A program made the translations under genes and the position numbers. A stretch of 64,000 bases of DNA from Marinobacter sp. HL-58 (GTDB lineage: Bacteria > Pseudomonadota > Gammaproteobacteria > Pseudomonadales > Oleiphilaceae). The stretch covers positions 1 to 64,000 of the forward strand of contig NZ_LIHP01000008.1 of NCBI RefSeq assembly GCF_001314605.1. The letters are read 5' to 3'. This document shows, in pieces, positions 18,708 to 35,659 of the stretch. Each line of letters begins with the position of its first letter. Position 1 is the first letter of the stretch. Below the pieces are notes generated by a model. The model did no database searches. It had not been told where the DNA came from and was given only the letters and a program-made list of their open reading frames with translations.

Positions 18708-21700
18708 GCCGGGATCTTCCGCCAGTAGGCCCGTCCGGGGCCATTGCCAGGGTTTTCCAGAACAACCATCTGACACCGTTACTCGCCATCCTGGCCATTA
18801 TCCTGGGTGTTCTGGCAGTGGTGGTTACCCCGAAGGAGGAAGAGCCCCAGATTGACGTCACCATGGCGGACATCATGGTGGCCTTTCCCGGCGCCAGTAC
18901 CCGCGAGGTGGAAAGCGCCATCGCCACCCCCGCAGAGCAGGTGATGAGCGAGATCGAGGGCGTGGAGCATGTCTACTCGGTGTCACGGCAGGGCCAGGCC
19001 GTCATCACCGTTCAGTTCGAAGTGGGGGTGCCCCGGCAGGAAGCGCTGGTGCGGTTGTATAACCAGGTCTACTCGAACCAGGACTGGCTGCCGGCCAATC
19101 TCGGTGCCAGCCAGCCGGTGATCAAACCCAAGGGCATCGATGACGTGCCGGTAATGACCCTGACCCTGTACGATCCGGTCAACGGCCACACTGGTGAGGA
19201 GCTTACCCGCCTGGCGCACATGCTGGAAGTGGCGCTCAAGCGCGTTCCCGGCACCCGGGATGTCTATACCACCGGCGGCATCGCCGATCGGGTCGATATC
19301 CGCTTTGATCCAGCCTTGCTGGCTGGTTTCAATCTCACCGTCGACGATATTCGCAACGCGCTGGCTGCAGCCAATGCCAGCAGCCAGGAAGCCCGGGTCA
19401 CGCGGGATAACGTATCCATTCCGGTGCAGGCCGGAACCCTGCTGGAATCGGTGGATGACGTCCGTCGCCTGGTGGTCGGGATGCATAACGGTTCCGCGGT
19501 GTACCTGGAAGACGTCGCTGACATCAGCCGGGGCGGTACCGTGGCGGACCAGAGCGTGATGACGGGGTTCGGGCCGGCCCATGAGGCGGGTAAAGGGGGG
19601 CAGGCAGGGGAAGTGTACCCGGCAGTGACCCTGGCCATCGCCAAGAAACCCGGTGAAAACGCCATCGACATCACCACCGCCATTGAGGAGCGGCTTGACC
19701 AGCTTCGCAATCGCGCCCTGCCAGCGGATGTGGAGGTGCTGGTCACCCGGGATTACGGCGTGACCGCGTCCCAGAAAGCCCGCAAACTCATCACCGACCT
19801 GATCTCCGCCACCCTGTGCGTAGTGTTGCTGGTGCTGGCGGCCATGGGCTGGCGACAGGCGCTTATCGTCGGTATTGCGGTGCTGATTACCCTGCTTTTG
19901 ACCCTGGTGTTTTCCTGGGCCTGGGGCTTCACCCTTAACCGGGTCTCCCTGTTCGCGCTGATTTTCTCCATCGGCATACTGGTGGATGACGGCATCGTGA
20001 TCACCGAGAACATCAACCGCCGGATCCGGAATTCCCGGCATGCGGTGAAAGACATCATTCCCGTTGCCGTCGATGAAGTGGGGACGCCCACCATCATGGC
20101 CAGCCTGACGATCATGGCGGCGCTGATCCCCATGGCGTTTGTCAGCGGCCTGATGGGGCCCTACATGAGTCCGATCCCGATCAACGCCTCGGCCGGCATG
20201 GTGCTGTCCCAGATCGTTGCCTTCGTGGTGGCGCCCTGGCTCGCCCTGCGGTTGCTGAAACACAAGAAAGGGGAAATGGCCGCCGAAGCGGACGAAGCCT
20301 CGAATTCCGCGGATGGGGTCAGCCCCCTGTCCCTGCGCATTTTCCGCAGTGTGCTGGGGCCTTTCCTGGGCGATCACCCCTGGCGGCGTCGATTGCTGGG
20401 GCTGGGCGTTGTGGGCCTGACGCTGGCTGCTGCCTCGTTGCCGGTCTTCCTGGCCGTTATCCTGAAAATGCTGCCGTTCGACAATAAATCCGAACTGCAG
20501 GTGGTGTTGGACATGCCCGAACGCACCCCCATGGAACAGACCCAGCGGGTGCTGATGGAAATGGGGGCCTACCTGGAAACCGTGGAGGAAGTGGCTAACT
20601 GGCAAACCTACGCGGGCACGGCCGCCCCCATAAACTTTAACGGCCTGGTGCGCCAGTATTACCTGCGCGGTGATCCTTACCACGGTGACATTCAGGTCAA
20701 CCTGAGCGACGAGGAAAACCGAGAGCGGCAATCCCACGATATAGCGCAGTCGTTACGGGCACCGCTGACCGACATTGGTGAACAATACGGCGCCAGCGTG
20801 AAGATCGTGGAGGTACCCCCGGGGCCACCGGTACAGTCTCCCCTGGTGGCCGAGATCTACGCGGTGGACGAAACCCGGCGCGCAGAACTGGCCCGCAAAT
20901 TGGCGGAGGACATGGCCGAAGTCGACGGGTTGGTGGATATCGACACAACCCTCGAAGCGCCAACCCGGCAATGGGAAGTGGTGGTGGACAGGGACCGTGC
21001 CGCGCGGCTGGGTGTGTCCCAGGCCCAGGTGGTGGATGCCCTGGGAACGGTCCTTGGCGGAAGCAGCGTCAGCTTCCTGCACGACGATCACGCCAAGTAC
21101 CCGGTACCCATCCGGGTAATTCTGGGCGAAGGAGATAAGGCACAGCCTTCGGTGTTGCTGTCCCTGAATGTGCGCAGCCGCGACGGTCATCTGGTGCCGT
21201 TGGCCAGTATTGCCGAGGTTCGAGAGGCGGACTGGATGGGGGCGATCTACCACAAGGACCTGTTACCGGTGACCTATGTGACCGCGGATATGGCCGGTGA
21301 CATCGACTCACCCCTGTATGGCATGTTCGATATGGTCGAGCGCCTGAACCAGCAGGAAGGGGCTCCGGAGCAGTATTTCATCGGCCAGCCTCCGTTGCCT
21401 GAAAAAGGCACTCTCAAATGGGACGGCGAGTGGCAGATTACCTATGAAACCTTCCGGGACATGGGCGCCGCCTACAGCGTGGGCGTGTTCATGATTTTTG
21501 TTCTGCTGGTGGCCCAGTTCCGCTCCTATATTCTGCCGCTGGTGATCATGGCGCCCATACCGCTGACGTTGATCGGTATCATGCCGGGCCATGCCCTGCT
21601 GGGGCGTGAGTTCACCGCCACCAGCATGATCGGCATGATTGCCCTGGCGGGCATTATCGTGCGTAACTCCATTTTGCTGGTGGTGTTTATCCGGCAACTG

Positions 21701-21934
21701 ATCGATGAAGGGGTAAAGCTGGAGGAGGCCGTGGTTCTGGCGGGCGCGGTGCGGATCAAGCCTATTGCATTGACGGCCATCTCCGCGATGGTGGGTGCTT
21801 ACTTTATTCTCGACGATCCGATTTTTAACGGCTTGGCAATCTCGCTGGTCTTTGGTCTGGCCATGTCCACCCTGCTGACTGTAGTTGTGGTGCCATTGCT
21901 GTATTACACCCTGGCGCGCTGCCGCTGGGTCTGA
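18704..21934 (+). CDS. RND efflux inner-membrane permease
   Basis: 1076 residues, standard RND size, with 12 helices in two halves and two large periplasmic loops. The proton-relay Asp pair is visible in helix 4 (SIGILVDDGIVITENI). The N-terminus ARVFQNNHLTPLLAILAIILG and AFPGASTREVESAIATPAE are typical of HAE-type pumps near the subgroup that moves diverse hydrophobic or metal-related substrates; there is no Met-rich periplasmic cluster clearly indicating Cu/Ag export. It is coupled to the adaptor upstream and ends one base before a convergent diguanylate cyclase gene. Proximity to a copper receptor is noted, but a terminator separates them. Confidence 0.92.
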   Translation: MSRDLPPVGPSGAIARVFQNNHLTPLLAILAIILGVLAVVVTPKEEEPQIDVTMADIMVAFPGASTREVESAIATPAEQVMSEIEGVEHVYSVSRQGQAVITVQFEVGVPRQEALVRLYNQVYSNQDWLPANLGASQPVIKPKGIDDVPVMTLTLYDPVNGHTGEELTRLAHMLEVALKRVPGTRDVYTTGGIADRVDIRFDPALLAGFNLTVDDIRNALAAANASSQEARVTRDNVSIPVQAGTLLESVDDVRRLVVGMHNGSAVYLEDVADISRGGTVADQSVMTGFGPAHEAGKGGQAGEVYPAVTLAIAKKPGENAIDITTAIEERLDQLRNRALPADVEVLVTRDYGVTASQKARKLITDLISATLCVVLLVLAAMGWRQALIVGIAVLITLLLTLVFSWAWGFTLNRVSLFALIFSIGILVDDGIVITENINRRIRNSRHAVKDIIPVAVDEVGTPTIMASLTIMAALIPMAFVSGLMGPYMSPIPINASAGMVLSQIVAFVVAPWLALRLLKHKKGEMAAEADEASNSADGVSPLSLRIFRSVLGPFLGDHPWRRRLLGLGVVGLTLAAASLPVFLAVILKMLPFDNKSELQVVLDMPERTPMEQTQRVLMEMGAYLETVEEVANWQTYAGTAAPINFNGLVRQYYLRGDPYHGDIQVNLSDEENRERQSHDIAQSLRAPLTDIGEQYGASVKIVEVPPGPPVQSPLVAEIYAVDETRRAELARKLAEDMAEVDGLVDIDTTLEAPTRQWEVVVDRDRAARLGVSQAQVVDALGTVLGGSSVSFLHDDHAKYPVPIRVILGEGDKAQPSVLLSLNVRSRDGHLVPLASIAEVREADWMGAIYHKDLLPVTYVTADMAGDIDSPLYGMFDMVERLNQQEGAPEQYFIGQPPLPEKGTLKWDGEWQITYETFRDMGAAYSVGVFMIFVLLVAQFRSYILPLVIMAPIPLTLIGIMPGHALLGREFTATSMIGMIALAGIIVRNSILLVVFIRQLIDEGVKLEEAVVLAGAVRIKPIALTAISAMVGAYFILDDPIFNGLAISLVFGLAMSTLLTVVVVPLLYYTLARCRWV

Positions 21935-22993
21935 TCAGGTTCGGGCCGTTACCATTGATGGAGACAGGGCAGGGACAATCTGGTTACGGCCGGCATCCTT
22001 GGCGGCATACAGGCGGGCGTCTGCCGCACGCACCAGTTCACGCAGCGTGTCACCGTCGGTTCCAAGTTCGGCAACCCCGCCACTGAGTGTCAGGCGGATC
22101 ACGTTGCCGTTGATGGTCAGGGGGGTGGATGCGACGGCGATACGGATCTTTTCGGCCACTTCCAGGGCCTGTTCGCTGTTGGTATTGCTGAGGAGAATAC
22201 CGAATTCCTCACCTCCCAGCCTTGCAGCCAGATCGGTCGCCCGCAGGCATTCCCTGAAAGTGCGGGCAATGTACTGAAGGGCCCGGTCGCCGGTTTCATG
22301 GCCATGGTCGTCGTTGACGTCCTTGAAGTGGTCGAGATCGAGAACCAGCACGGATATGGGCGAGTTGTATCGCCTTGCCCGGTGCTTTTCACGCTCGAAA
22401 ATATCAGTGAGTCGAGCCCGGTTGGCCAGCCCGGTAAGCGGATCGGTCTGGGCAATCTTCATAAGCTGGCGCTCGGATGTCTCACGGGTCACTTCATAAA
22501 CATGTGAGAAAACCAGAATACACAGGGAGATCACCGCGATATTGGTGATCGGCAGAGCCTGCATCATCTCCGGTTGATCCTGATGCCTGAACAGGAAGAT
22601 GACTGCGGCAATCCCCATATAGAATAGTGAAACGGCCAGCCCGAGCCGCCGCCCCATCAACAGGTGGGAAATAATCGGTATCAGCAGCACCCACGCATGC
22701 ACTGCCGATGTGGCCCGTGGCGTGGCCATGGCAAACATCATGGCGGTGAAAAATGGGAACAGGTAGGCGATGATCCAGCGTTCCAGGTGTCTCGTGTGAC
22801 GGATCGCCCGGTAAACGATGATGGCATAGACACCCATTGCGATTTCAACAATGGCAAGCGGGAAGCTGCCTTTCAGGAGATTCATGGATGAGAAGAGTAT
22901 GGCGCCAATGATCGTCAGAACCAGCAGAGCCTTGAGTACTGCCTTGCGGTAAGGGCGTGCCAGTTCTTTCAGGGGCTCTTTGTAGCTATCCAT
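21935..22993 (-). CDS. Membrane-anchored GGDEF diguanylate cyclase
   Basis: 352 residues. Five or six hydrophobic helices lie at about 20-175, forming an unnamed MASE-like sensor, followed by a linker and a GGDEF domain from about 185. The active loop is LGGEEF, and RATD five residues upstream is the inhibitory I-site, so c-di-GMP synthesis with feedback is expected. QTDPLTGLANRARL is the usual start of the catalytic domain. It sits between two RND clusters but on the opposite strand, with a 265-base gap on its 5' side (22994-23258) in which I see only promoter-like AT-rich sequence. Confidence 0.9.
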   Translation of the reverse strand: MDSYKEPLKELARPYRKAVLKALLVLTIIGAILFSSMNLLKGSFPLAIVEIAMGVYAIIVYRAIRHTRHLERWIIAYLFPFFTAMMFAMATPRATSAVHAWVLLIPIISHLLMGRRLGLAVSLFYMGIAAVIFLFRHQDQPEMMQALPITNIAVISLCILVFSHVYEVTRETSERQLMKIAQTDPLTGLANRARLTDIFEREKHRARRYNSPISVLVLDLDHFKDVNDDHGHETGDRALQYIARTFRECLRATDLAARLGGEEFGILLSNTNSEQALEVAEKIRIAVASTPLTINGNVIRLTLSGGVAELGTDGDTLRELVRAADARLYAAKDAGRNQIVPALSPSMVTART

Positions 22994-23258
22994 GCGCGAG
23001 ATCTTTAGCGGCGGGGAACGGGCTGCCCCGAACCCATAAATGTGTAGACAAGATAAGCATAATCTTAAAAATGTGAATTAGATCAGATTTCCGACAAAAA
23101 GTGCGCGGATTAAGACCAAAGTCGTAGCTATATGGCAGTGGTCGGGCATGCGCTATATTGACGCACCATGCTGGAACCGGATCCAAAACCCGATTCAGGC
23201 TGTATAGTATGAAGCCCTGTTTCATCCCTTTCGACACACCCCGATTGGCCAGAGAACC

Positions 23259-24500
23259 ATGTCTAAACGATTCATTCCCCTGTTGATACTTGCCATCGGT
23301 GTTGCCGGTTTCATCCTGCTCAAGGTTACCCGGCCGGAGCCGGAAACGGTCAGCGCCAGGGAGCGCAGCTGGCTGATCGAGGTGATGGCAGCGGCCCCGG
23401 CAACCCACACGCCGGTTTTGCCCCTGTATGGCGAGCTGGTAGCGCCGGAACAGACCACCATCACTGCCCCCCTGGCCGGGCGAATTGGAAGCCGGCCGGT
23501 GCGTGAAGGGCAGCGGGTCAAGGCGGGGGATCTGCTGGTGGCGCTGGACAACGCTGACGTTGCACCCCTGCTTGATCAGGCAGAGGCAGATGTCCAGGAC
23601 CTGAAGGCCCAACTGGCTTCTGAACAGGTACGGTATGCCAATGACCAGGAGGCACTGGAGGGCGAGAAAGACATCCTGGACAACGCCTTGCGACAGTACG
23701 AGCGAACGCAGTCGCTGGTTAACCGCGACCTGTCTTCACGGGAAGCGCTGGATGCCGCCTCGGATGCCCTGGCCCGCGCCCGCCTCACAGTCACCGCGCG
23801 GCAAAGGGCCGTGGATGAGCATCCATCCCGTGTGCAAAGCCTGGAGGCGAAGCTTGCCCGGGCCCGGGCAGCGCAGGCTTCGGCGCGCCGGGATGCGGAA
23901 CGAGCCACGGTAACGGCCCCCTTTGATGGCGTCGTGACCGACATCCAGGTGGCTGAGGGCGATCGCATATCACAGAATGCCCGGATGCTTTCGGTCTATC
24001 CGGACCGGGGGCTGGAACTCAGGGCCCGGGTGCCGGAGGTTTTCCGTCAGGAGTTGCTGGACGCCCTGGATTCCGGCGAGGAACTGCAGGCGGAAACCGC
24101 CGATGGCAGGCACCGTTTCACGCTTTCCGGGTTCTCCGGTACCAGTGATCCGTCGGGTACCGAGGCGATACTGACACTGAATGGTAATGCCGGGGGCCTG
24201 CGCCCGGGTGGATTATTGCCGGTAACGCTGGAACGGCCTGCCAGGAATAATGCCATTTCCATTCCCTACAGCGCGCTCTACGGAAGCGACAGTATCTACC
24301 GTATGACCGATGATTCCCGTATGCAGCGGGTCACGGTGGAACGCCTCGGGGAGGCCCGGGATTCGAATGGTGAACGCCGGGTACTGGTGTCGGCCGAGGA
24401 GCTGGAAGCCGGAGACCGGGTGATCACCACACATCTGCCCAACGCCATGACCGGGCTGAAAGTGGAGCTGGCGGATGCCGGGCCGGAGTCGGACGAATGA
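23259..24500 (+). CDS. RND efflux periplasmic adaptor, first gene of a five-gene export cluster
   Basis: 413 residues with an N-terminal membrane anchor or signal (FIPLLILAIGVAGFILLKV). The lipoyl halves are QTTITAPLAGRIGSRPVREG and RATVTAPFDGVVTDIQVAEGD, separated by a long Ala/Arg/Glu-rich coiled coil at about 105-215. Barrel and membrane-proximal domains follow. The stop overlaps the RND permease start by 4 bases (24497-24500). It opens a run of five genes with overlaps or gaps of at most 5 bases, so it is likely the first cistron of a single operon. Substrate unknown. Confidence 0.9.
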   Translation: MSKRFIPLLILAIGVAGFILLKVTRPEPETVSARERSWLIEVMAAAPATHTPVLPLYGELVAPEQTTITAPLAGRIGSRPVREGQRVKAGDLLVALDNADVAPLLDQAEADVQDLKAQLASEQVRYANDQEALEGEKDILDNALRQYERTQSLVNRDLSSREALDAASDALARARLTVTARQRAVDEHPSRVQSLEAKLARARAAQASARRDAERATVTAPFDGVVTDIQVAEGDRISQNARMLSVYPDRGLELRARVPEVFRQELLDALDSGEELQAETADGRHRFTLSGFSGTSDPSGTEAILTLNGNAGGLRPGGLLPVTLERPARNNAISIPYSALYGSDSIYRMTDDSRMQRVTVERLGEARDSNGERRVLVSAEELEAGDRVITTHLPNAMTGLKVELADAGPESDE

Positions 24501-27500
24501 GGCGTCGCCGTGGTGTCATTGGTTTCTTTGTTCACCACCGGGTGGCCGCCAACCTGGTGATGCTGGTCATGCTGCTCGGGGGAACCCTGGCGCTGACCCG
24601 GATGAACATCCAGTTCTTTCCCAACTTTGCCCTGGACATCGTCAGCGTTCGGGTGGTCTGGAGCGGTGCTTCCGCGGAGGATATCGAGCAGGGCATTACC
24701 AACCCGCTGGAGCAGCGCCTGCGCAGTGTCCAGGGGTTGAAGAAGATGACATCAACCTCTGCCCAGGGGGTCTCGTCCATCACCCTGGAGTTCACCGAGA
24801 ACACCAATCCCATCCAGGCCCTGGATGACGTGCGCCAGCAGGTGGATGAGTTTACCAACCTGCCAGCAGAAGCGGAGGAACCCGAGGTCACCCGGTTCGA
24901 GCGCTACGAACCCGTTGGCCGGTTGCTGGTCTACGGCGACATGGATCGCACGGAACTGCGCCAGCTGGCCTACCGGTTTGAGGATGAGCTGCTGGCAGGG
25001 GGCATTGACCGGGTTTCCATTCGCGGGTTGCCGGAGCAGCAGATCAGCATTGATGTGCCGGTGGAACGCCTGGAAGCGCTCGGTCTGTCGCTGGACCAGA
25101 TTGCCGACCGGGTCGGGGCGATATCCCGCGACCTGCCGGCCGGGATGATGGGGCAACAGGATGCCACCCGGGAATTGAGATCCGTGGAACAGCGCCGCAG
25201 CCCCCAGGCCTTCGAGACCATTCCGGTGCTCAGTGACGGGCGAACCCGCCTGGACCTGGGTGATATCGCCATCATCCGCCAGGAAGCACGGGAAAGTCAG
25301 GTTAACCTGACCCGGGATGGCCACCCCGCCGTGGAGCTTCAGCTGCAACGGGCGGAGGATGGCAACTCCCTGGAAGCGGCCGGCATTCTCGAAGACTGGC
25401 TGGCGGATACCCGGCCGGTACTGCCCCCGTCGGTTGAACTGGAAGTCTATGACGAAACCTGGCAACTGCTGGACGACCGCATTTCCCTGTTGATCAAGAA
25501 CGGCATGGGCGGCCTGGTCCTGGTGATTATCCTGCTTTACCTGTTCCTGCCGGGCCGGGTTGCCCTGTGGGTGGCCATTGGCATACCGACTGCTTTTCTT
25601 GCGGCGCTGGCCGTGCTCTGGGGCATCGGCGGTTCCATCAACATGATTTCCCTGTTCGCGCTGATCATGGCGCTGGGGGTGATTGTCGACGATGCCATTG
25701 TGGTGGGGGAGGACGCCGATGCCCATGCCCGCATGGGGGAGGAGTCCATCTATGCCTCGGAGGGCGCCGCCAAACGGATGGTGTGGCCGGTTCTGGCGTC
25801 GTCCCTGACCACGGTGGCAGCGTTCATGCCCCTGCTGGTGGTGGGTGGCGTGATCGGCAACATCCTGGGGGACATTCCCCTGGTGATGATCTGTGTGCTG
25901 ATTGCCTCTTTGCTGGAGTGTTTTATCGTGCTGCCGGCCCACCTGCGCCATGCCTTCACCCCCGGCAAACGCAAGTCGTCCGGTCCCGGCCCCGTGGAAC
26001 GCCTGCGCAAACGATTTGAAACCGGCTTTGACCGCTTCCGCGAAGGCCCCTTCCGGAGGGCCTCCCGTTATACCCTGCAGCATCGCGGCATGACCCTGGC
26101 GTCGGCCGTGGCGCTGGCTCTGGTGACAGTTGGGCTGCTGGTCGGTGGCCGGCTGGGGTTCAACTTCTTCCCAACGCCGGAGCCGTCAGTGCTCTATGCC
26201 AATGCCAGTTTCGTGGCCGGCACCAACCGGGAAACCGTGGACGACTTTGTTGCCGAAATGCAGCAGACACTGAACGAAACCGAGGAGGCGCTGGGGGGTG
26301 ACCTGATTCTGCACGCCGTTGCCAACCATGGCACCACCCAGGGTGCCGAGGGCACCACACGAACCGGGGACGAACTGGGCTCCATCATGGTGGAACTGGT
26401 ACCCTCGGACCGCCGCGACATCCGCAATCCGGAATTCATCACGTCCTGGCGGGATCGCCTGGACCGTCCCGCCGGCCTGGATAACCTGACCATCTCCGAG
26501 CGACAGTCCGGCCCGCCGGGCAAGGATGTGAACGTGCGGCTGACCGGTGAGAATGCCGTTGACCTGAAACGGGCGGCGGAGTCCCTCAACGAGTCGCTGC
26601 GTACCCTGCCGGGCGTACTGGATACCGAAGACGACATGCCCTGGGGGCGGGAGCAACTGATCTACCAGGTCAGCCCCTATGGAGAGGCCCTGGGGCTGAC
26701 CACCAGCGACCTTGGCAACCAGCTACGGGCGGCCTTTGACGGGCGGATTGCCCAGATCTACCAGGATGGCCGGGACGAAGTAGAAGTGCGCGTGCAGCTA
26801 CCCCGGGAGCAGCGGGAAAGCATGGCAACCCTGTCGCAGTTGACGGTGCGGGTGCCCGACGGGCGTTTTGTCCCCCTGGCCCAGGTCATGAACCTGGACC
26901 ATCGCCAGGGTTTCCAGGCGCTTCGGCATGCCGAGGGGGACCTGGCGGTTGAAGTAACGGCGTCCCTGAATACCCGCATCAGCACCGCCGACCAGATCAT
27001 TGCCAGCCTCGAGGAAGAGGTGCTGCCATCACTGGCCAGCCAGTACAACCTGCGATACAGCTTTGAAGGGCGTGCCGCGGACCAGCGGGAAACCATGGAC
27101 GACATGAAAACCGGCCTGGTTATCGGCCTGGGCCTGATGTATGTGGTGCTGGCCTGGGTGTTCGCGTCCTGGAGCATGCCGGTGATTGTCATGGCCATTA
27201 TTCCCTTTGCGCTGGTGGGGGCGCTGATCGGCCACTGGCTGATGGGGCTGCAACTGACCATTCTCTCGCTGTTCGGGCTGTTTGGTCTCTCCGGCATCGT
27301 GGTCAATAACGCCATCATCCTCGTCGCTTTCTATAACCAGCAGCGCAAGAAAGGCCTGGGGATTACCGATGCCCTGAACGAGGCGGCGGTTCAGCGGGTG
27401 CGGGCGGTGCTGCTCACCTCCCTGACCACCATCGGGGGCCTGCTTCCGCTGCTGTTCGAGACCTCGCTGCAGGCCCAGTTCCTGATTCCCATGGCCACGT

Positions 27501-27643
27501 CCATCGCGTTCGGCCTGGGGCTGTCGACATTGCTGGTGCTGGCGGTGATTCCGGCGTTGCTGTCGTACCTTGAGCAGTTCCGGGAATGGCGGGCCCGCCG
27601 CCGGGGTGAGGATCCCGAAGCCACTATTCCGCGGAGTGTGTAA
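24497..27643 (+). CDS. RND efflux permease
   Basis: 1048 residues with RND topology: VHHRVAANLVMLVMLLGG as helix 1, the helix-4 Asp pair in MALGVIVDDAIVVGEDADAH, then a charged loop with the usual position of a helper region, and a second half with FGLFGLSGIVVNNAIILV. It differs from drug pumps in helix 4, where GED replaces the usual VEN. Its stop TAA shares a base with the ABC ATPase ATG (27643). Coupling to an ABC module is unusual; the pump may hand on or share substrate with it. No outer-membrane channel is present. Confidence 0.92.
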   Translation: MRRRRGVIGFFVHHRVAANLVMLVMLLGGTLALTRMNIQFFPNFALDIVSVRVVWSGASAEDIEQGITNPLEQRLRSVQGLKKMTSTSAQGVSSITLEFTENTNPIQALDDVRQQVDEFTNLPAEAEEPEVTRFERYEPVGRLLVYGDMDRTELRQLAYRFEDELLAGGIDRVSIRGLPEQQISIDVPVERLEALGLSLDQIADRVGAISRDLPAGMMGQQDATRELRSVEQRRSPQAFETIPVLSDGRTRLDLGDIAIIRQEARESQVNLTRDGHPAVELQLQRAEDGNSLEAAGILEDWLADTRPVLPPSVELEVYDETWQLLDDRISLLIKNGMGGLVLVIILLYLFLPGRVALWVAIGIPTAFLAALAVLWGIGGSINMISLFALIMALGVIVDDAIVVGEDADAHARMGEESIYASEGAAKRMVWPVLASSLTTVAAFMPLLVVGGVIGNILGDIPLVMICVLIASLLECFIVLPAHLRHAFTPGKRKSSGPGPVERLRKRFETGFDRFREGPFRRASRYTLQHRGMTLASAVALALVTVGLLVGGRLGFNFFPTPEPSVLYANASFVAGTNRETVDDFVAEMQQTLNETEEALGGDLILHAVANHGTTQGAEGTTRTGDELGSIMVELVPSDRRDIRNPEFITSWRDRLDRPAGLDNLTISERQSGPPGKDVNVRLTGENAVDLKRAAESLNESLRTLPGVLDTEDDMPWGREQLIYQVSPYGEALGLTTSDLGNQLRAAFDGRIAQIYQDGRDEVEVRVQLPREQRESMATLSQLTVRVPDGRFVPLAQVMNLDHRQGFQALRHAEGDLAVEVTASLNTRISTADQIIASLEEEVLPSLASQYNLRYSFEGRAADQRETMDDMKTGLVIGLGLMYVVLAWVFASWSMPVIVMAIIPFALVGALIGHWLMGLQLTILSLFGLFGLSGIVVNNAIILVAFYNQQRKKGLGITDALNEAAVQRVRAVLLTSLTTIGGLLPLLFETSLQAQFLIPMATSIAFGLGLSTLLVLAVIPALLSYLEQFREWRARRRGEDPEATIPRSV

Positions 27644-28311
27644 TGCCCGGTTGCGTGCTGGCGATTGAAGGATTGGGTAAAAGCTTCATCAGCGGTGGTC
27701 AGAACGTGCCGGTGCTGGCCGGCTTGTCCCTTGCGGTCAATGAAGGCGAATCCCTGGCGGTAATGGGGCGGTCGGGCTCGGGCAAGAGCACGCTGCTGAA
27801 CTTGTTGTGCGGTCTGGAGACTCCGGATACGGGACGGATCACCATCGTGGGTGAGTCGTTCGACCACCATGGCAAGTCCGGTCCCGACGACCGCTGGGGG
27901 GAGCTGCGGCGGCGCTCCATCGGCGTGGTGTTCCAGGAAGCGAACCTGATGCCCGCCCTGTCATTGCTGGAGAATGTGCGGCTGCGGGCTTACCTGGCCG
28001 ACCAGCCTGCCGGTGGTGAGCGACAATGGCTGGAGCGTCTGGGCGTGGGGGCAGAGGCCGACCGCTATCCGGATCAGGTCTCCGGTGGCCAGGCCCAGCG
28101 TGCCGCCCTGGCCATGGTCTTCGCCATGGCACCGGCGCTGATACTGGCGGACGAGCCCACAGGCAGCCTCGACCGCCACACCGCCGATGAAGTGGCCGAT
28201 TGCCTGTTTGCCATGCAGCGGGACAATGGCTGCGCGCTGGTGCTGGCCACCCACGATGCCGAACTGGCGGGCCGCTGCGACCACCTGCTCGACCTGACGC
28301 AACCCGGATAG
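27643..28311 (+). CDS. LolD/MacB-type ABC transporter ATPase
   Basis: 222 residues, typical for the LolD/MacB/AttE class that works with FtsX-like permeases. Walker A is GRSGSGKST (about 42-50), the Q-loop GVVFQEANLMP, the signature VSGGQAQRAALA, Walker B LILADEPTGSLD and the switch His in LATHDAEL. It would drive mechanotransmission in the FtsX-like partner encoded 5 bases downstream rather than classic transport through the membrane. All nucleotide-binding motifs are intact. Confidence 0.93.
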   Translation: MPGCVLAIEGLGKSFISGGQNVPVLAGLSLAVNEGESLAVMGRSGSGKSTLLNLLCGLETPDTGRITIVGESFDHHGKSGPDDRWGELRRRSIGVVFQEANLMPALSLLENVRLRAYLADQPAGGERQWLERLGVGAEADRYPDQVSGGQAQRAALAMVFAMAPALILADEPTGSLDRHTADEVADCLFAMQRDNGCALVLATHDAELAGRCDHLLDLTQPG

Positions 28312-28316
28312 CCGTG

Positions 28317-30587
28317 ATGCTGGTCCGCGCGTTCATCAGCCACTATCGCCGGCACCCGTTCCAGCTTCTGGCGCTGGCCCTGATGATCACACTGGCCACC
28401 ATGCTCTGGACCGGCGTGACCGTGCTCACCGACCAGGCCCGCAACAGCCTGTTCCAGAGCGAGGAAGCTGTTGCCGCACGGGTTCAGGTGGTGCGCACCG
28501 ATGGCCAGCCGGTCACGGTGGATGACTTTGCCTGGCTGCGCATGGCCGGTGTCTGCGTTGCGCCCTGGCTGGAAGTCCAGCGGCCACCTCCCGAGGGGCG
28601 GGTGATCGGAATCGACCCCCTGGCCCTGGGCTGCTTCGGTGAGTCGGCCCCCGGTGGCGAAGCCGGTGACCTGGACGGCGAACCGTTTATGGATATCAGC
28701 GAAGCCGCGATGCTTTCGGCCAAAGGAGCCGACAGCCAGCTTTACCTGCTGGCAGGGACTGACGACGAAAGCTTGCCGGAAACCTACGCCCTGAAGGACT
28801 TTTCACTGTCGCCGCCGACCGGCGAGCTCGCGGACAGCTTCCTGCTGAACCTGGATGCCCTCAGCCTGCTGGTATTGCTGATTACCGGTCTGCTGGTGCG
28901 CAGTGTGCACCGGCTCGGGCTGGCCCAGCGCCGGGACAGCCTGGCGCTGTTGCACCGCTTCGGGGTGCCACGACGGCGGGTACGGCAGTTGCTGGTGCTG
29001 GAACTGATGGCGTTGACTGCCCTGTGCGTGCTGCCAGGCCTCTGGCTGGGGGCGCAACTGGCCGGGGTGCTGGGCGGTGGGTTTGGCCAGGCGCTGGACA
29101 ACCTGTTTGATGTGGCACTTTACGCCGGCTCTGATGAGTCACTCCCTTGGCGGGCAGCCGGAGTCATGGTGCTGCTGGTACTGGCGGTATGCCTGCTGGA
29201 CTGGGTGCTGCCACGTCGCTGGCAGAATGCCGCCAGCTCCGGACGCGGTCTCCGGGTGGCAGGCCTTGTTCTGCTCGCCGGGCTGACCGGCGTGGTGCTG
29301 GCCCCGGGGCTGGGATGGGTGTTTGCGGGAACTGCCCTGGTGTTCGCCGGAGCTGGCTGGCTGACGCCGGCCTTGCTGGCAATGATGGCCCAGAGGCTGT
29401 CCGGGAGCGCCAGTGATACCGGGGTTAGCCCATTGCTCGGCTGGCGGCGCCGGGAACTGGCGGTTATGTTCCGGCAACTGGCACTACCGGTGGTGGCCCT
29501 GCAGTTTGCCGTGGCCACCGTGCTGGCGGTTCAGGCGCTGGTGACAACCTTTGAGAATACCTTTGACGACTGGCTGGCCCAGCGCCTTGAAGCGGAATTC
29601 TATGTGGAAGTGCCCGTCGGAGCCGATGCAGAACTGGGGGCAGCGCAGTTGCGGGAGCTTGAAGGCATCGGGCCATGGCATCGGGTGACCCGGGGCGAAG
29701 CGAGTATCAGCCCTGCCGACAACGACGGAAAAGGTGCCGTTACGCCTGTGGACCTGTTCGCCCTGGGGCCTGTCGGCGAACTGGTCGCGGACTGGACGCT
29801 TCTGGAAAGCTCCGCCCGGCCGTGGCAGCAACTGGCGCAGGGTGGAGTGATGATCAACGAACAGCTGGCCCGTCGCCAAAACCTGGAGGTGGGCGACACG
29901 CTTGATGTAACCATTGCAGATACCGACATCCGTGTTCCGGTTGTGGCCGTTTACGCGGATTACGGCCGGCCCGCCGGTGAAGTGCTCATCCACCGGGCAC
30001 AGTTGCCGGAAGCATTCAGCGCCGGCTTCGAAAGCTTTTCCGTCAATCCAGGGGAGCGGACCATGGCAGAGATCAGCGACCGGCTGGCGGATGTGTGGGA
30101 TACCAGTAATCTGACTGTCCGGGACAATGCCAGCATTCGCGCCCTGGCGTCCCGGGTGTTCGGTCAGACCTTCCTGCTCACCCGCGCCATCAGCCTGCTG
30201 ACCCTGGTGCTGGCGGCCGTCGCACTGCTGATCATGGGCTGGGTCTTCTTCACCACCCGGGCGTGGTATTTCCAGCTCCTGGCGGTCTGGGGGCTGCCGG
30301 CAACGATGCTCCGGCGCCAGCTTCAACGGCTGGCGGTGACGCTGACCCTGTCGGTGACAGCCGCCGCACTGCCACTGGGTATCTGGCTGACCTGGGTGCT
30401 GGTCAGCCGCATCAATCCCCTGGCGTTTGGCTGGTCGCTGCCCATGGCGGTCTATCCCATGTTCTGGCTGGAGCTGGGGCTGGTGGCCGCTGGCATCGGC
30501 CTGGTCATCGCCCGGCTGATGCGCCGGCAACTGGAAGGGCCGACACCGCTGCCGCCTGCCAGCCGGATGACGGGAGCGGAACGATGA
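28317..30587 (+). CDS. FtsX-like ABC permease (AttF/AttG-like, fused size)
   Basis: 756 residues from ATG 28317 (GTG 28314 is the alternative). One helix near the N-terminus (LLALALMITLATML), a periplasmic domain, three helices around 190-330, further helices in the middle and three at the C-terminus around RAISLLTLVLAAVALLIMGW and the last 100 residues. This is the double-FtsX layout of about 780 residues found with AttH-like proteins. It should pair with the ATPase upstream and act on a periplasmic or membrane-borne substrate. Its stop overlaps the lipoprotein start by 4 bases. Confidence 0.85.
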   Translation: MLVRAFISHYRRHPFQLLALALMITLATMLWTGVTVLTDQARNSLFQSEEAVAARVQVVRTDGQPVTVDDFAWLRMAGVCVAPWLEVQRPPPEGRVIGIDPLALGCFGESAPGGEAGDLDGEPFMDISEAAMLSAKGADSQLYLLAGTDDESLPETYALKDFSLSPPTGELADSFLLNLDALSLLVLLITGLLVRSVHRLGLAQRRDSLALLHRFGVPRRRVRQLLVLELMALTALCVLPGLWLGAQLAGVLGGGFGQALDNLFDVALYAGSDESLPWRAAGVMVLLVLAVCLLDWVLPRRWQNAASSGRGLRVAGLVLLAGLTGVVLAPGLGWVFAGTALVFAGAGWLTPALLAMMAQRLSGSASDTGVSPLLGWRRRELAVMFRQLALPVVALQFAVATVLAVQALVTTFENTFDDWLAQRLEAEFYVEVPVGADAELGAAQLRELEGIGPWHRVTRGEASISPADNDGKGAVTPVDLFALGPVGELVADWTLLESSARPWQQLAQGGVMINEQLARRQNLEVGDTLDVTIADTDIRVPVVAVYADYGRPAGEVLIHRAQLPEAFSAGFESFSVNPGERTMAEISDRLADVWDTSNLTVRDNASIRALASRVFGQTFLLTRAISLLTLVLAAVALLIMGWVFFTTRAWYFQLLAVWGLPATMLRRQLQRLAVTLTLSVTAAALPLGIWLTWVLVSRINPLAFGWSLPMAVYPMFWLELGLVAAGIGLVIARLMRRQLEGPTPLPPASRMTGAER

Positions 30588-31681
30588 TCGCCCGTCGGCT
30601 TATGCCCTTGCTGTTGCTGGCCCTTGCGACCGGCTGTTCCGAGCCTGACTCCCAAGCCGGCTTTGCCGGCCTGGCCGAGCAGGCAGGCGAGGCGGATGAA
30701 TCCGGCTTTCTGCAACCGGAGCCCGGTGATGAGCTGGTTTTTCCGGATGACTGGGGGCCCCATCCGCAACACCGCATCGAATGGTGGTACCTCACCGCGA
30801 ATCTGGAAACCGCTGACGGCGAACCCCTGGGCCTGCAATGGACCCAGTTTCGCCAGGCTCTGAAACCCCGGTCTGCCGATGCACAGCCGCCTGACGCCGA
30901 AACCTGGCCCCTGGACGCGGCCTGGATGGCCCATGGGGCGGTGTCGTTTGCGGGTGACCACTGGTTTGAGGAGAAACTGGCCCGGGGCGATGTGGGCCAT
31001 GCCGGCGCTACCGCAGAACCGTTACAGGTGTGGCTGGACGACTGGCGCCTGGAAGCCGTGCAGGGCGAGGATCACTGGCGTCTGCAGGTCAACGGTGATG
31101 GCTGGAGCTATGACCTGCGCCTTGGCAATACCGGCCGCCCGGTCGCCCACGGCGACGAGGGTTTCAGCGCCAAGTCTGCCAGCGGCGAAGGGTCCATGTA
31201 TTTCAGCCTGGTGGACCTTGAGATTGATGGCACGGTGACGCTGGATGGCGAATCCATGGAGGTATCCGGCAGGGGCTGGTTCGACCGGGAGTGGAGCAGC
31301 CAGTTTCTGAAAGCCGGACAGCAGGGCTGGGACTGGTTTGCCCTGCATCTGGGAGGCGGCCAGAAACTGATGGCATTCCGATTGCGTGAGGACGACGGTG
31401 CCTTTGTCTCGGGCAGCTGGATAAGCGCTGAGGGCGAGGTGATATCTCTGGGTGTTGATAATCTGACAATCACTCCGGAGACCTGGCAGGAAACGGTAGA
31501 AGGAAGGGTGCCTGTCCGTTGGCGGCTGCAGATCCCGGAACGGCAGGTGGATGTGACGATTGCGGCACCAGAGGGCAACTACTGGAATACCGGGCTTTAC
31601 CCCTACTGGGAAAGCCCGGTGTCGGTTTCCGGTTCCCACGAAGGTGTGGGCTATATGGAGTTGACCGGCTACAGCGACTAG
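30584..31681 (+). CDS. AttH/CrtC-like lipocalin-fold lipoprotein
   Basis: 365 residues. The signal peptide ends in a lipobox LATGC (Cys18), so the protein is a lipoprotein. The body has the CrtC/AttH hallmarks: HRIEWWYLTANLET, GLQWTQFRQAL, AWMAHGAVSF, and SGRGWFDREWSSQFL, then GWDWFALHLGGGQKLMAFRLR. The family includes carotenoid 1,2-hydratase and AttH of the AttEFGH system; most members have no known reaction. ATG 30584 overlaps the permease stop. The gene ends 5 bases before the convergent Anbu protease gene. A role in handling a lipid-like ligand with the ABC/RND machinery is inferred. Confidence 0.85.
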   Translation: MIARRLMPLLLLALATGCSEPDSQAGFAGLAEQAGEADESGFLQPEPGDELVFPDDWGPHPQHRIEWWYLTANLETADGEPLGLQWTQFRQALKPRSADAQPPDAETWPLDAAWMAHGAVSFAGDHWFEEKLARGDVGHAGATAEPLQVWLDDWRLEAVQGEDHWRLQVNGDGWSYDLRLGNTGRPVAHGDEGFSAKSASGEGSMYFSLVDLEIDGTVTLDGESMEVSGRGWFDREWSSQFLKAGQQGWDWFALHLGGGQKLMAFRLREDDGAFVSGSWISAEGEVISLGVDNLTITPETWQETVEGRVPVRWRLQIPERQVDVTIAAPEGNYWNTGLYPYWESPVSVSGSHEGVGYMELTGYSD

Positions 31682-31686
31682 GCGGC

Positions 31687-32412
31687 TCAGCGAATCACTG
31701 GTGGCTGAAGGCCCTCGACCAGTTCCTGAATGCCCTGGTGCCATTGCTGACGGAGCTGATGGAAATAGTCGTTATGCTCGTCCACCCGGTCGATAAAGCA
31801 GGGCTTGAGTTGATCGTTACGGTAGATGGCCACATCCAGTGGCATGCCCACGGACAGGTTGCTTTTCATGGTGGAGTCGAAGGAGATCAGCGCGCACTGG
31901 TAGGCCCGCTCCAGGGAAGACCGATAGTTCACCACCCGGTCCAGAATCGGCTTGCCGTACTTGGATTCGCCAATCTGGAAATAGGGCGTTTCCTCGGTGG
32001 CTTCGATGAAATTGCCTTCCGGGTAGATATTGAACAGCCGTGCTTCTTCGCCCTGAATCTGGCCGCCAAGAATCAGTGAGCAGCTGAAATCCACATGATT
32101 GACCTTGCCCTCGGGATTGTCCCGGCGAATGACCTCGCGGATGGTCTTGCCCACGATTTCAGCGGTCTCGAACATGGAGGTGGTGGAAAACACGTTGGGC
32201 TCCTCGGTGCCGCCACGCTTTTCCAGCAGGCTGATCACACTCTGGCTGGTGGCAAGGTTGCCGGCAGACAATATCACCAGCTCCCGCTCCCCGGGCTTCT
32301 CAAAGACATGCATCTTGCGGAAGGTGGAGATCTGGTCAAAGCCCGCATTGGTGCGGGAGTCGGACGCGAATACCAGGCCATCGGCCAGTCGCATCGCCAC
32401 ACAATAGGTCAT
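31687..32412 (-). CDS. Anbu proteasome-type protease
   Basis: 241 residues of the Anbu (ancestral beta subunit) family, related to HslV and the 20S proteasome. After removal of Met the N-terminal Thr (MTYCVAMRLADG) would be the nucleophile; Asp17 in ASDSRTNAG and Lys32 in FRKMH complete the catalytic set, so it appears active. It is the last gene of a conserved four-gene operon with ATP-grasp, alpha-E and transglutaminase-like proteins, in which Anbu is thought to act on a modified peptide or ligated product. It is convergent with the lipoprotein gene. Cytoplasmic. Confidence 0.92.
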   Translation of the reverse strand: MTYCVAMRLADGLVFASDSRTNAGFDQISTFRKMHVFEKPGERELVILSAGNLATSQSVISLLEKRGGTEEPNVFSTTSMFETAEIVGKTIREVIRRDNPEGKVNHVDFSCSLILGGQIQGEEARLFNIYPEGNFIEATEETPYFQIGESKYGKPILDRVVNYRSSLERAYQCALISFDSTMKSNLSVGMPLDVAIYRNDQLKPCFIDRVDEHNDYFHQLRQQWHQGIQELVEGLQPPVIR

Positions 32413-32505
32413 GGGGGGCTACCCTCGGGTCGTCGGAATCCGCCCAGTGTAATCCTTTCTGCAAAGAAAGCATGGGTTGGAGTGTCGATTTTTGAAAGCT
32501 TTTTG

Positions 32506-33291
32506 TTACTGGTTTTCTCCTGCCATGGTGACCCATGCCCGGGTGTGCAGGCTCTCCATACCACCACCACTGCGGATGCCGCGCACGGGTGCGGCGTCGC
32601 GGTAATCCAGCCCCGTTGCCAGTTTGATGTGGCTCTCGGCCACGTTGAGCAGGTTGACCACATCGAAAGTATGCCAGTTGCGGCCCAACCAGGCTTCCGC
32701 CCAGGCGTGGGTGGCCAGGTGGTGTTCGCTGTGGGTGTGGATGTAGCCGCTGACGTAACGCACCGGAACGCCGATGTGGCGGCAGCAGGAAATGAAGATA
32801 TGGGTATGGTCCTGGCACACGCCGGCTTTCTGCCTGAAGGCTTCCGCTGCCGTATGGGTGACCGTGGTGACCCCGGGCATGAACTCGATATGTTCCAGAA
32901 TGCGGTTCATCATTCGTACCAGGCTGCGCTTGTTGGCCGAGAACTGGCTGGCAAAAGCCTTGATGGCCTTATCCGCTTCAGTCAGCGGGGTGTGGCGTAG
33001 GAACACCTCCGGCGGAAAAGGCGAGTCGTCTTTTGTCAGTGGCTTGCCGGTCAGGTCGACCACACCCTCCGCCCGCAGGGTGATCTCTGTGACAGTCTTT
33101 TCCATGGTCATGACGGTCACCAGATTGCCGAAACCGTCGGTCATCTGGCTGGTTTCGCCGGGCGTGCTCACTCGCCATTCCTGGATTTTCTGCTGTGGCG
33201 TATTGCGGGGTGTGAGGCGCAGGTACTGGATGCTGTTTTGCATCGGCGCGTCGTAAGTGTAGGTTGTGTCATGGCGGATATTCAGTTTCAT
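32506..33291 (-). CDS. Transglutaminase-like cysteine protease of the Anbu operon
   Basis: 261 residues from ATG 33291; an upstream in-frame GTG at 33300 is less likely because GGTGG lies about five bases before the ATG. The N-terminal Bact_transglu_N region is MKLNIRHDTTYTYDAPMQNS, and the catalytic core shows Cys in AGVCQDHTH, His in ATHAWAE and Asp in TFDVVN, all intact. Such proteins cleave or transfer on amide bonds. The gene sits between alpha-E and Anbu, 2 bases after the alpha-E stop, as in other Anbu operons. Confidence 0.9.
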   Translation of the reverse strand: MKLNIRHDTTYTYDAPMQNSIQYLRLTPRNTPQQKIQEWRVSTPGETSQMTDGFGNLVTVMTMEKTVTEITLRAEGVVDLTGKPLTKDDSPFPPEVFLRHTPLTEADKAIKAFASQFSANKRSLVRMMNRILEHIEFMPGVTTVTHTAAEAFRQKAGVCQDHTHIFISCCRHIGVPVRYVSGYIHTHSEHHLATHAWAEAWLGRNWHTFDVVNLLNVAESHIKLATGLDYRDAAPVRGIRSGGGMESLHTRAWVTMAGENQ

Positions 33292-33293
33292 TG

Positions 33294-34226
33294 TTACCAC
33301 CCCATGTAGTCTTTCTGGATCTGGCCGGAGATGCGCTCGATGCGCGCCAGGAAGTCGGTCAGATACTCATGCAGCCCGCGGTCTTCAATGTATTCCCGGT
33401 CGCCGAAGCGGATGTTGGCATACAGGCTGGTGGCCAGGCGCCGGGCACGGCGGGCTTCCCCGCTTTCGATCTGCTCCAGCAGGTCGGCGATTTCCTGCAG
33501 GCAGGCGTGAAGTGAACGGGGCACATCAGGCTTGAGAATCAACAGTTCGGCCACGTTCATCGGCTCGATATTGTGACCGTAGGTGTGCTGGTAGGCCTCG
33601 AAGGCTGCCAGGGAATGCAACAGGGCCGTCCACTCGAAGAAGGACTGGGTGGGGTGGCCTTCCAGGGACTTGGTGGCCATGCGATGGCGAATATCCAGTA
33701 CCCTTGCGGTGGTATCGGCCCGCTCAATGAAGGTGCCCAGTCGCAGGAAGTGGAATGCGTCATTACGCAGCAATGTGCCATAGGCGGCGCCTCTGAAAAC
33801 GTGAGAACGCTCCCGGGTCCAGTCGAACACGCGGCTGGCATTGGATTCGGTAACACCCTTGTGGCGCAGTTCCTTGAGCTCCATCCACGCCAGGTTGATG
33901 CTTTCCCATACATCCGCCGACAGGTTGCCCCGCACATGCAGGGCGTTGTCCCGGGCGCTGCGGATAACGCTGAATACGCTGGCGGGGTGGCGATCATCCA
34001 GCAGCAGGAAGTCGATCAGGTTCTGGGGCGTGATGTCCCCGTACAGTTCATCGAACACTTCCCGGGTGCCGGTAACCAGTAAAGGTACGGAAAGCTGTTC
34101 CTCTCGGTCTTCAGGCACGTCGATCAGTGCCATGGTCAGGCTGACATCCAACAGGCGGGCCTGGGTTTCGGCACGCTCCAGGTAACGGGCCATCCAGAAC
34201 AGACTTGATGCGGCGCGGCTCAGCAT
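33294..34226 (-). CDS. Alpha-E domain protein (DUF403) of the Anbu operon
   Basis: 310 residues, almost wholly helical, beginning MLSRAASSLFWMARYLERAE, the signature of the alpha-E (DUF403) family, with FDWTRERSHVFRG and FHFLRLGTFIERADTTARVLD as conserved helices. It always travels with the circularly permuted ATP-grasp gene, here overlapping by 7 bases, and is presumed to be a partner in peptide-bond formation. No active site of its own is recognised. Confidence 0.9.
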   Translation of the reverse strand: MLSRAASSLFWMARYLERAETQARLLDVSLTMALIDVPEDREEQLSVPLLVTGTREVFDELYGDITPQNLIDFLLLDDRHPASVFSVIRSARDNALHVRGNLSADVWESINLAWMELKELRHKGVTESNASRVFDWTRERSHVFRGAAYGTLLRNDAFHFLRLGTFIERADTTARVLDIRHRMATKSLEGHPTQSFFEWTALLHSLAAFEAYQHTYGHNIEPMNVAELLILKPDVPRSLHACLQEIADLLEQIESGEARRARRLATSLYANIRFGDREYIEDRGLHEYLTDFLARIERISGQIQKDYMGW

Positions 34227-35659
34227 TGGTCGTCCTCCAGTACCCAGGTGTCCTTGGTGCCACCGCCCTGGGAGGAATTCACCACCAGGGAGCCTTCTTT
34301 CAGGGCCACCCGGGTGAGGCCGCCGGGGACCATCTGCACCTTCTTGCCCGAGAGCACGAAGGGCCTCAGGTCCAGATGCCGGGGCGCAACGCCTTCTTCC
34401 ACAAAGGTGGGGCAGGTGGACAGGCTCAGGGTGGGCTGGGCAATGTAGTTATCCGGGCGCGCTTTCAGCAGCTTGCGGAAATGGCTGATTTCCTTCTTGG
34501 TAGCCTTGGGGCCGATCAGCATGCCGTAGCCACCGGCACCCTGGGTTTCCTTGACCACCAGATCCGGCAGGTTGTCGAGGATGTAGCTCAGGTCCTTGGG
34601 TTTGCGGCCCTGCCAGGTGGGTACGTTCTTGAGTATGGGCTCCTCGCCCAGGTAGAAGCGGATCATCTCCGGCACGAAGGGGTAGATGGCCTTGTCGTCG
34701 GCAACGCCGGTGCCCATGGCATTGGCCAGCACCACGTTGCCGGTGCGGTAGGCGGCATAGAGCCCCGGAACACCAAGCATGGAGTCGGGATTGCCCGCCA
34801 GTGGATCGAGGAAGTCGTCGTCGATCCGCCGGTAGATCACATCCACCTGCTGGGGACCAATGGTAGTCTTCATGTAGACCTTGTTGTTGCGAATGAACAG
34901 GTCCGCCCCCTCCACCAGTTCGATGCCCATCTGGCGCGCCAGGAAGGCGTGCTCGAAATAGGCACTGTTGAATCGGCCGGGGGTGAGTACCACCACCGTG
35001 GGGTTGGATCTCAGGGAGGCGGCGCGGAGGGTTTCTCCCAGCAGCGCCGGGTAATGCTCCACCGGGGCAACGGGCGCCTGGGCGAACAACTCGGGGAACA
35101 GGCGCATCATCATGCGGCGGTTCTCCAGCATGTAGGATACGCCGCTGGGGCAGCGGAGGTTGTCCTCCAGCACGTAGAAGTCGCCGTCGTTGTGGCGGAT
35201 CAGATCGATACCGGCAATGTGGGAATACAGGTTGCGAGGCAGTTTCAGGTTCTGCATGCCGGGCTGATACTGGGGGTTGGCAAACACCTGCTCGGCGCTG
35301 ATGACCCCCGCGCGGATGATGTCAAAGTCGTGGTAGATGTCGAACAGGAAGCGGTTCAGTGCCTGTACACGCTGTCGCAGGCCGGCCTGAAGCCGTTGCC
35401 AGTCGGAGGCAGAGATGACCCTTGGAATCAGGTCAAAAGGGATCAGGCGTTCTGCTCCCTGGTCCTCTCCATACACATTGAAGGTGATGCCCAGACGCTG
35501 GAAAAGCACGTCCGCTTCCCGGCGCTTTTCCGCAAGCAGGTCTTCGTCTGACTTGATCAGCCAGTCTTCCAGCATGCGGCAGCTGGGTCTTACCCGGTTA
35601 TTTTCGTCGAACAGTTCGTCGTAAATACCCTCGGGCGGGGTTTGAATCAGCATAACCAT
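34220..35659 (-). CDS. Circularly permuted ATP-grasp protein (type 2) of the Anbu operon
   Basis: 479 residues from ATG 35659, chosen because AGGAGAGG lies directly upstream; 20 more codons are open before it but look untranslated. Conserved blocks include RPSCRMLEDWL near the N-terminus, PFDLIPRVISASDW, YVLEDNLRCPSGVSYMLENR, and VVKETQGAGGYGMLIGP, which together define the DUF404/DUF407 circularly permuted ATP-grasp family. It probably ligates amino acids onto a small peptide or protein with ATP. It is the first gene of the operon with alpha-E, transglutaminase-like and Anbu genes. Confidence 0.9.
   Translation of the reverse strand: MVMLIQTPPEGIYDELFDENNRVRPSCRMLEDWLIKSDEDLLAEKRREADVLFQRLGITFNVYGEDQGAERLIPFDLIPRVISASDWQRLQAGLRQRVQALNRFLFDIYHDFDIIRAGVISAEQVFANPQYQPGMQNLKLPRNLYSHIAGIDLIRHNDGDFYVLEDNLRCPSGVSYMLENRRMMMRLFPELFAQAPVAPVEHYPALLGETLRAASLRSNPTVVVLTPGRFNSAYFEHAFLARQMGIELVEGADLFIRNNKVYMKTTIGPQQVDVIYRRIDDDFLDPLAGNPDSMLGVPGLYAAYRTGNVVLANAMGTGVADDKAIYPFVPEMIRFYLGEEPILKNVPTWQGRKPKDLSYILDNLPDLVVKETQGAGGYGMLIGPKATKKEISHFRKLLKARPDNYIAQPTLSLSTCPTFVEEGVAPRHLDLRPFVLSGKKVQMVPGGLTRVALKEGSLVVNSSQGGGTKDTWVLEDDQC

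Follow-up and report, generated by a model that had tools for sequence, protein, structure and literature searches.

What would a resistance-nodulation-division (RND) pump do in one tight gene cluster with an ATP-binding cassette (ABC) module and a lipocalin? The question is raised by five genes at positions 23,259 to 31,681 of a stretch of 64,000 nucleotides from Marinobacter sp. HL-58. This stretch, called the window below, is part of contig C17 in a genome of 4.24 Mb. A first-pass annotation had treated the five genes as one coupled operon that moves a shared hydrophobic cargo. We tentatively favor a reading in which the last three genes encode a Type VII ABC extractor of the AttEFGH kind that loads the lipocalin, and in which Marinobacter has coupled this extractor to an RND exit. 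The first-pass interpretation is partly supported: the set reads as a real operon at the level of the genus, made of two modules, the second of them of a known type. The genes and the letters used for them are:

A, 23259..24500, + strand: RND periplasmic adaptor (membrane fusion protein), 413 amino acids; TIGR01730 above cut-off, HlyD_3 and Biotin_lipoyl_2 matches.
B, 24497..27643, + strand: RND permease, AcrB/MdtB-like, 1048 amino acids; ACR_tran 545 bits, closest solved relative MdtB (9lyq).
C, 27643..28311, + strand: ABC ATPase nearest to YbbA, 222 amino acids; ABC_tran match, PDB 9ge6_B.
D, 28317..30587, + strand: FtsX-type permease, 756 amino acids; two FtsX matches, AlphaFold2 (AF2) model.
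E, 30584..31681, + strand: AttH-type double lipocalin with a signal peptide and lipobox-like end, 365 amino acids; PF07143 and PF17186 matches, 2ICH at Z 39.9.

The five genes and four junctions of the first-pass annotation were borne out by coordinates and junction sequences. A and B overlap by 4 bases (ATGA), B and C by 1 base (TAATG) and D and E by 4 bases (ATGA), and the 5 bases between C and D are the largest gap within the set. The start of D is taken here as the ATG at 28317; the mechanical list of open reading frames extends D in frame to a TTG at 28200 within C. In 21800-32500 there are 6 terminator-like sites, below the shuffled mean of 8.2, and 3 promoter-like sites, near the shuffled mean of 2.2. 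With gaps of at most 5 bases, and spacings kept in 22 congeners, the five genes look co-transcribed and made together, as proposed under the term coupled operon. The region in front of A has conserved parts:

22994..23258, no strand assigned: stretch from the divergent GGDEF gene to the start of A, with blocks kept in congeners.

In a 7-locus alignment inspected by eye, the sequence blocks of this region are common to congeners, including two in which C follows the region directly; its sigma-70-like sites are weak and at about chance level.

Genes C, D and E are also met as a set elsewhere. In Agrobacterium fabrum C58, pAt 132809-149831 has matches (tblastn) to C, to D in two pieces and to E, in the same order, with identities of 43% for C, 43% for E, and 29% and 29% for the halves of D, and no RND pair is present there. 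The earlier assignment of an AttEFGH-type ABC/lipocalin module therefore agrees with the C58 set. We take the C58 matches to be AttE to AttH, the record itself naming only attM nearby. The D-type permease match (L162:5433-7969) lies in two overlapping frames where the gene table lists nothing, and this may explain the separate names AttF and AttG. A Vibrio cholerae table, in an excerpt of PMC4338557, lists AttF/AttG as one protein. The name AttEFGH is in use in annotation, including that of Vibrio cholerae and Paracoccus, and the literature passages searched state no function for the set.

Loci carrying E were fetched from 27 congeners and two other members of the order, 29 in addition to the window's own, out of 31 E-bearing genomes with our own included; G054, with a partial E match at a contig start, was left out. 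Every one of the 29 has C and D in front of E, with D in pieces in L041. A second set, referred to as the named loci, comprises the 80 top-scoring relatives of E, out of at least 592, from gamma- and alphaproteobacteria and is not a random sample. Searches with the window's proteins place C and D upstream of E on the same strand in 74 of these 80. The other six comprise three contig ends (L080, L097, L134), two loci in which C was not found (L088, L092) and L119, where C-D is on the opposite strand. Of the 73 named loci in which the D-E junction was measured, 58 have an overlap of 4 or 11 bases; in L075 and L077 the two genes are separated by 4562 and 856 bases. An orthologue of A-B accompanies 10 of the 12 named Marinobacter loci (the contig of L067 starts within B) and none of the 68 named loci from outside Marinobacter; 6 of these 68 either have less than 1.5 kb of sequence in front of C or are without C. 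In a sample of the class, E was found in 88 and A-like adaptors in 47 of 369 genomes, our own included; no more than 4 or 5 candidates were scored for each genome in these searches, and in draft assemblies a split between contigs can conceal that two genes are neighbors. Thirteen of the 87 other E-bearing class genomes were fetched, with C present in 13, D in 11 and RND in none.

Two neighborhoods outside Marinobacter may be mentioned. In Albimonas pacifica (L083:1525-10990) a distant adaptor-RND pair (25-30%) lies upstream of C on the same strand with a short open reading frame between, perhaps an independent pairing. A GGDEF-domain match stands next to C on the same strand in L105, L150 and L161, all from other genera; the Marinobacter GGDEF gene is divergent.

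A parallel for the proposed mechanism of C-D-E is provided by the YbbAP-TesA system. YbbA is the best match of C in the PDB and its nearest solved relative (9ge6_B, E 1.1e-49), although C scores 181 bits against NCBIfam YbbA, under the equivalog cut-off of 336. The AF2 model of D (pLDDT 88.3, pTM 0.84) has ten long helices, by our own count at residues 14-52, 169-204, 219-264, 278-297, 309-327, 332-368, 389-423, 604-657, 662-704 and 714-740, and two periplasmic domains at about 53-168 and 424-603, which follow transmembrane helices TM1 and TM7, the placement described for YbbP. YbbP is the nearest full-length fold, resembling the model over the length of D (VIA Z 24.4, rmsd 5.2, 570 residues) and coming first by Foldseek (E 5.0e-18, versus 1.8e-11 for BceB), whereas LolC and LolE resemble it over half only. 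Both systems thus have a single fused permease with two periplasmic domains, known for D from the model, and a periplasmic partner. They differ in that partner, E being a double lipocalin where E. coli has the SGNH/GDSL esterase TesA. They differ also in that a TesA/YbbAP-type locus is separately present in this genome, in which an ABC-ATPase-like open reading frame (identified by eye) and a double-FtsX permease are divergent from the gene of a GDSL lipase; C-D-E is therefore an additional system. The Type VII ABC systems LolCDE-LolA and MacAB-TolC share with C-D-E the FtsX-type permease, the ATPase family and the idea of a periplasmic partner. However, D is one fused permease in place of the LolC/LolE pair, LolA was not seen, and A is encoded with the RND permease and lost together with it.

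According to the excerpt of PMC12646458 consulted, YbbAP is proposed to extract hydrophobic molecules and to present them to a periplasmic partner by ATP-driven movements, extraction still awaiting confirmation in the words of its authors. By analogy, C-D-E would form a self-contained Type VII (mechanotransmission) ABC transporter, with two copies of C powering D as a YbbP-like permease. E would take the place of TesA, so that D would extract a hydrophobic molecule from the inner membrane and present it to E. In a further relay, the cargo or product of E would be expelled by A-B via an outer-membrane channel encoded elsewhere. The gene set, its junctions, distribution and relatives, the predicted folds and the conserved residues are shown by the analysis, whereas extraction, docking of E on D, the class of ligand, a cargo common to both halves and the hand-over to the RND pump are inferred. 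The hand-over is the weakest step, and its one basis is genetic linkage; the linkage to A-B in Marinobacter does hint at export of the product from the cell.

The fold of E is compatible with the role of receiver. Its model (pLDDT 90.6) is best matched by NE1406 (2ICH; Z 39.9, 33% identity) and next by kievitone hydratase (7A0Q; Z 29.2, 18% identity), both of which the sequence of E also matches, followed by decalin-type pericyclases (Z of about 23) and 25-phosphosteroid lyase (9G4C; Z 20.0, 13% identity). NE1406, kievitone hydratase and the lyase have the fold of E, and their ligands differ or lack assignment. The fold group of E takes in enzymes with hydrophobic substrates, namely kievitone hydratase and the lyase. 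All 72 aligned named E proteins have Asp234, Trp249 and Trp251, the 74 rows having been reduced to 72 by dropping the misread starts of L118 and L132, which hhalign retained. A local hhalign of E and CrtC (74 columns, probability 54, E 1.3e-4) sets the catalytic Asp and Trp-x-Trp of CrtC on Asp234 and Trp249-x-Trp251. The corresponding numbers of the R. gelatinosus CrtC (Asp268, Trp283, Trp285) were transferred to E by spacing. The catalytic role of the CrtC Asp and Trp pair is given in an excerpt of PMC12402844, and the alanine mutants of CrtC His239 and Tyr266 were inactive (PMC4717167). At the position of Tyr266, all 72 named E proteins have Trp (Trp232) and Tyr is not kept. Positions 205 and 207, which correspond by spacing to CrtC His239 and Trp241 and lie outside the hhalign block, are occupied by Tyr in 37, Met in 24 and His in 2 of the 72, and mainly by Tyr or Phe, respectively. 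Kievitone hydratase, with hydration activity measured according to an excerpt of PMC5805349, has the same Trp-x-Asp-Arg-x-Trp and Trp-x-Trp pattern as E, and likewise has Trp where CrtC has Tyr266.

Since the Asp and the Trp-x-Trp are common to E, CrtC and kievitone hydratase, prenyl-hydration chemistry is possible in E as judged from its sequence; a pure binding role is also possible. Might E then work chiefly as a periplasmic enzyme, acting on prenyl or isoprenoid substrates as a hydratase or lyase and supplied by C-D as TesA would be by YbbAP? We consider this unlikely. The invariant residues and the second rank of kievitone hydratase among the fold matches speak for it; against it are the uniform replacement of Tyr266 and the rarity of His at the position assigned to His239 by spacing, and the literature passages searched state no activity for any AttH protein. 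A hydrophobic ligand, which had been proposed earlier for the lipoprotein, fits the fold of E and its retained hydratase-type residues. A carotenoid cargo, also raised by the first-pass annotation, is unlikely because no gene of the phytoene-synthase family was found: SQS_PSY (PF00494) has no match in the window's genome, and the same search was positive in 7 of 14 control genomes. The idea of E as a carotenoid 1,2-hydratase in a carotenoid-exporting operon has in its favor the Pfam name 'CrtC' for PF07143. We rejected this name as a sign of carotenoid chemistry, since a genuine crtC product, encoded beside crtD in Roseobacter litoralis (L163:10801-11673), has no PF07143 match at E <= 0.001. 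The family name may mislead annotation, and with SQS_PSY missing as well, this explanation is extremely improbable.

The N-terminal end of E has a further conserved element:

30584..30676, + strand: signal sequence of E with the conserved GFAGL motif right after the presumed modified Cys (residues about 1-31), from sequence and motif counts.

The signal peptide, as read in the sequence, ends in a lipobox-like LATGC, and a lipobox is present here and in 25 of the 29 genome loci. The motif G[FYW]AG[LQ] occurs within the first 70 residues in 63 of 76 named E proteins (L062-L141) and further along in none of the 76; it is present in E of 27 of the 29 genome loci, and falls in our E at residues of about 26-30, right after the signal sequence. 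This position is within a low-confidence tail of the E model, which suggests that the conserved tail may serve as a docking peptide. The tail is shared by E proteins of the lipoprotein type and by those that look soluble.

Within the genus, searches located E in 27 of the 36 congeners and A in 29: 23 have both, 6 have A alone, 4 have E alone and 3 have neither, one of these being 62% complete. Among the 27 E-bearing congeners, 22 have A-B immediately in front of C, and these are 22 of the 23 congeners in which both halves occur. Spacings in the 22 joined congener loci are -4 for A-B (65 in two), -4 to 52 for B-C, -4 to 23 for C-D and -4 to 50 for D-E. The maintenance of such short spacings makes the arrangement more than chance, and the adjacency of A-B and C-D-E is old and kept. 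Measured against the refuting condition named in the first-pass annotation, an order not conserved beyond close strains, the claim of a single unit accordingly survives at the level of the genus only. Five E-bearing congeners are unjoined (G003, G035, G006, G024 and G029); in two of them, G003 (locus L032) and G035 (locus L041), the GGDEF gene and C are separated by 240-241 bases with no A-B in the interval. In a FastTree of the joined C-D-E alignments (29 rows, L041 left out), G006, G024 and G029 are basal in the genus and G003 lies inside the joined group, with several weak nodes (0.72 for the basal group, 0.20 for the placement of L032). These positions, with gains and losses read by eye, read as one joining of the halves followed by later loss of A-B, the G003 node being weakly supported. 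The A-B pair is present in all six congeners that have A without E. In one of these, L146, the gene for the protease, usually found behind E, is the immediate convergent neighbor of B, which indicates that C-D-E is missing as a block.

In the RND half, A scores 128.6 bits against TIGR01730 (cut-off 94.9), and the side-by-side adaptor and RND permease of a tripartite RND pump are present in A-B. The proton relay of AcrB consists of Asp407, Asp408, Lys940 and Arg971. Asp398-Asp399 and Arg969 of B are retained in all 23 Marinobacter B proteins aligned, as is Asn937-Asn938 at the presumed site of AcrB Lys940, placed without alignment to AcrB. Two proteins elsewhere in the genome, one on contig C4 and one about 75 kb away on C17, match OEP, and these two outer-membrane factors could complete the A-B pump.

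How do these results bear on an extractor joined to an RND exit? A number of them weigh against it. The five-gene operon includes no outer-membrane factor, a gene that not all RND pumps need in their operon. The halves are separable, A occurring without E in 6 congeners and E without A in 4; in G029 the A-B pair is about 26 kb from C-D-E; and A and E do not co-occur significantly among the congeners (Fisher p 0.33). None of the 23 other class genomes having both halves has them adjacent, with 20 on different contigs and 3 on the same contig at least 64 kb apart. For the extractor itself, BceB (VIA Z 23.7) is tied with YbbP by Z as a match of the D model, and YbbP is not among the 19 D-profile matches at E <= 1. 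For E, a global hhalign with CrtC gave nothing (E 0.97), and a lipobox pattern is absent in 41 of 72 named E proteins. In favor of the joined reading, the two families are found together outside the genus more often than independence would give (odds ratio 4.0, p 2.8e-5, from 23 of 368 genomes, uncorrected for relatedness and genome size). One conserved five-part machine, the first-pass view of the five genes as a single system, is rejected, the order being confined to the genus and seen neither in the 68 named loci from elsewhere nor in the 23 class genomes with both halves.

The absence of a lipobox in so many E proteins, most of them alphaproteobacterial with an apparently ordinary signal peptide (by eye) and with C-D-E kept, indicates that membrane anchoring of E is not general. 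It also bears on whether C-D may be a Lol-like releaser whose cargo is lipoprotein E itself. The lipobox here and in most genome loci would suit such a releaser, as would the sequence profile of D, which has LolC first (E 1.9e-7) and also LolF, BceB, MacB and FtsX. Nevertheless, with C-D-E kept where the lipobox is not, and with a D model that resembles YbbP or BceB over its length and LolC/LolE over half, we regard this explanation as very unlikely.

The separability of the halves calls for caution on the relay step in particular. A-B may simply be an efflux pump of the usual sort, with C-D-E serving envelope lipids as a system of its own, the two having a promoter and a membrane-stress response in common with no hand-over of cargo. 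Each half is complete and found alone, the usual followers of E stand behind B in L146, C is about 240 bases from the GGDEF gene in L032 and L041, and the genus-wide co-occurrence is non-significant. On the other side are the short B-C spacing and the adjacency in nearly all congeners having both. Such shared regulation is a real possibility and nearly as likely as the relay.

The proposal of an extractor joined to an RND exit may be compared with the export of phthiocerol dimycocerosate (PDIM) in mycobacteria, where, according to an excerpt of PMC11539658, DrrABC (ABC), MmpL7 (RND) and the lipoprotein LppX together export one lipid. This is an analogy only, as PDIM export has a Type V ABC transporter, an MmpL-type RND protein without adaptor and another envelope. 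The statement that no system with this exact set has been described is not contradicted, no paper on this five-gene set being found in the one open-access library searched; its novelty is qualified by the mycobacterial lipid exporter that combines the same three kinds of component. A bolder version holds that AttEFGH-type systems form a branch of the Type VII ABC transporters that has so far gone undescribed, with a lipocalin replacing TesA. In these, the ABC motor would draw a prenyl lipid from the inner membrane and feed it to a periplasmic, hydratase-like lipocalin held by its conserved GFAGLG tail, and in Marinobacter the product would go directly to a dedicated RND pump, in a lipid detoxification or export line of three energy steps that leads from the inner membrane to the exterior. 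We consider this version doubtful.

The surroundings of the five genes are also of some interest. A gene for a MASE6-GGDEF cyclase (21935-22993, - strand) is divergent from A, and the region directly upstream (17658-21934, + strand) encodes a second adaptor-RND pair, so that two RND pumps stand side by side; this second pair is upstream in many congener loci too. A convergent group downstream (31687-35719, - strand) starts with a proteasome-type protease (Pfam) and is syntenic in part of the genus. The genes after the protease are presumably a transglutaminase, an alpha-E and an ATP-grasp-like gene.

In summary, the C-D-E core is widespread, and tying it to the YbbAP-TesA mechanism and to a hydratase-type pocket yields a testable hypothesis, in which an ATP-driven extractor would pass its cargo to a lipocalin receiver. 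The Marinobacter lineages that lost one half provide ready comparisons.

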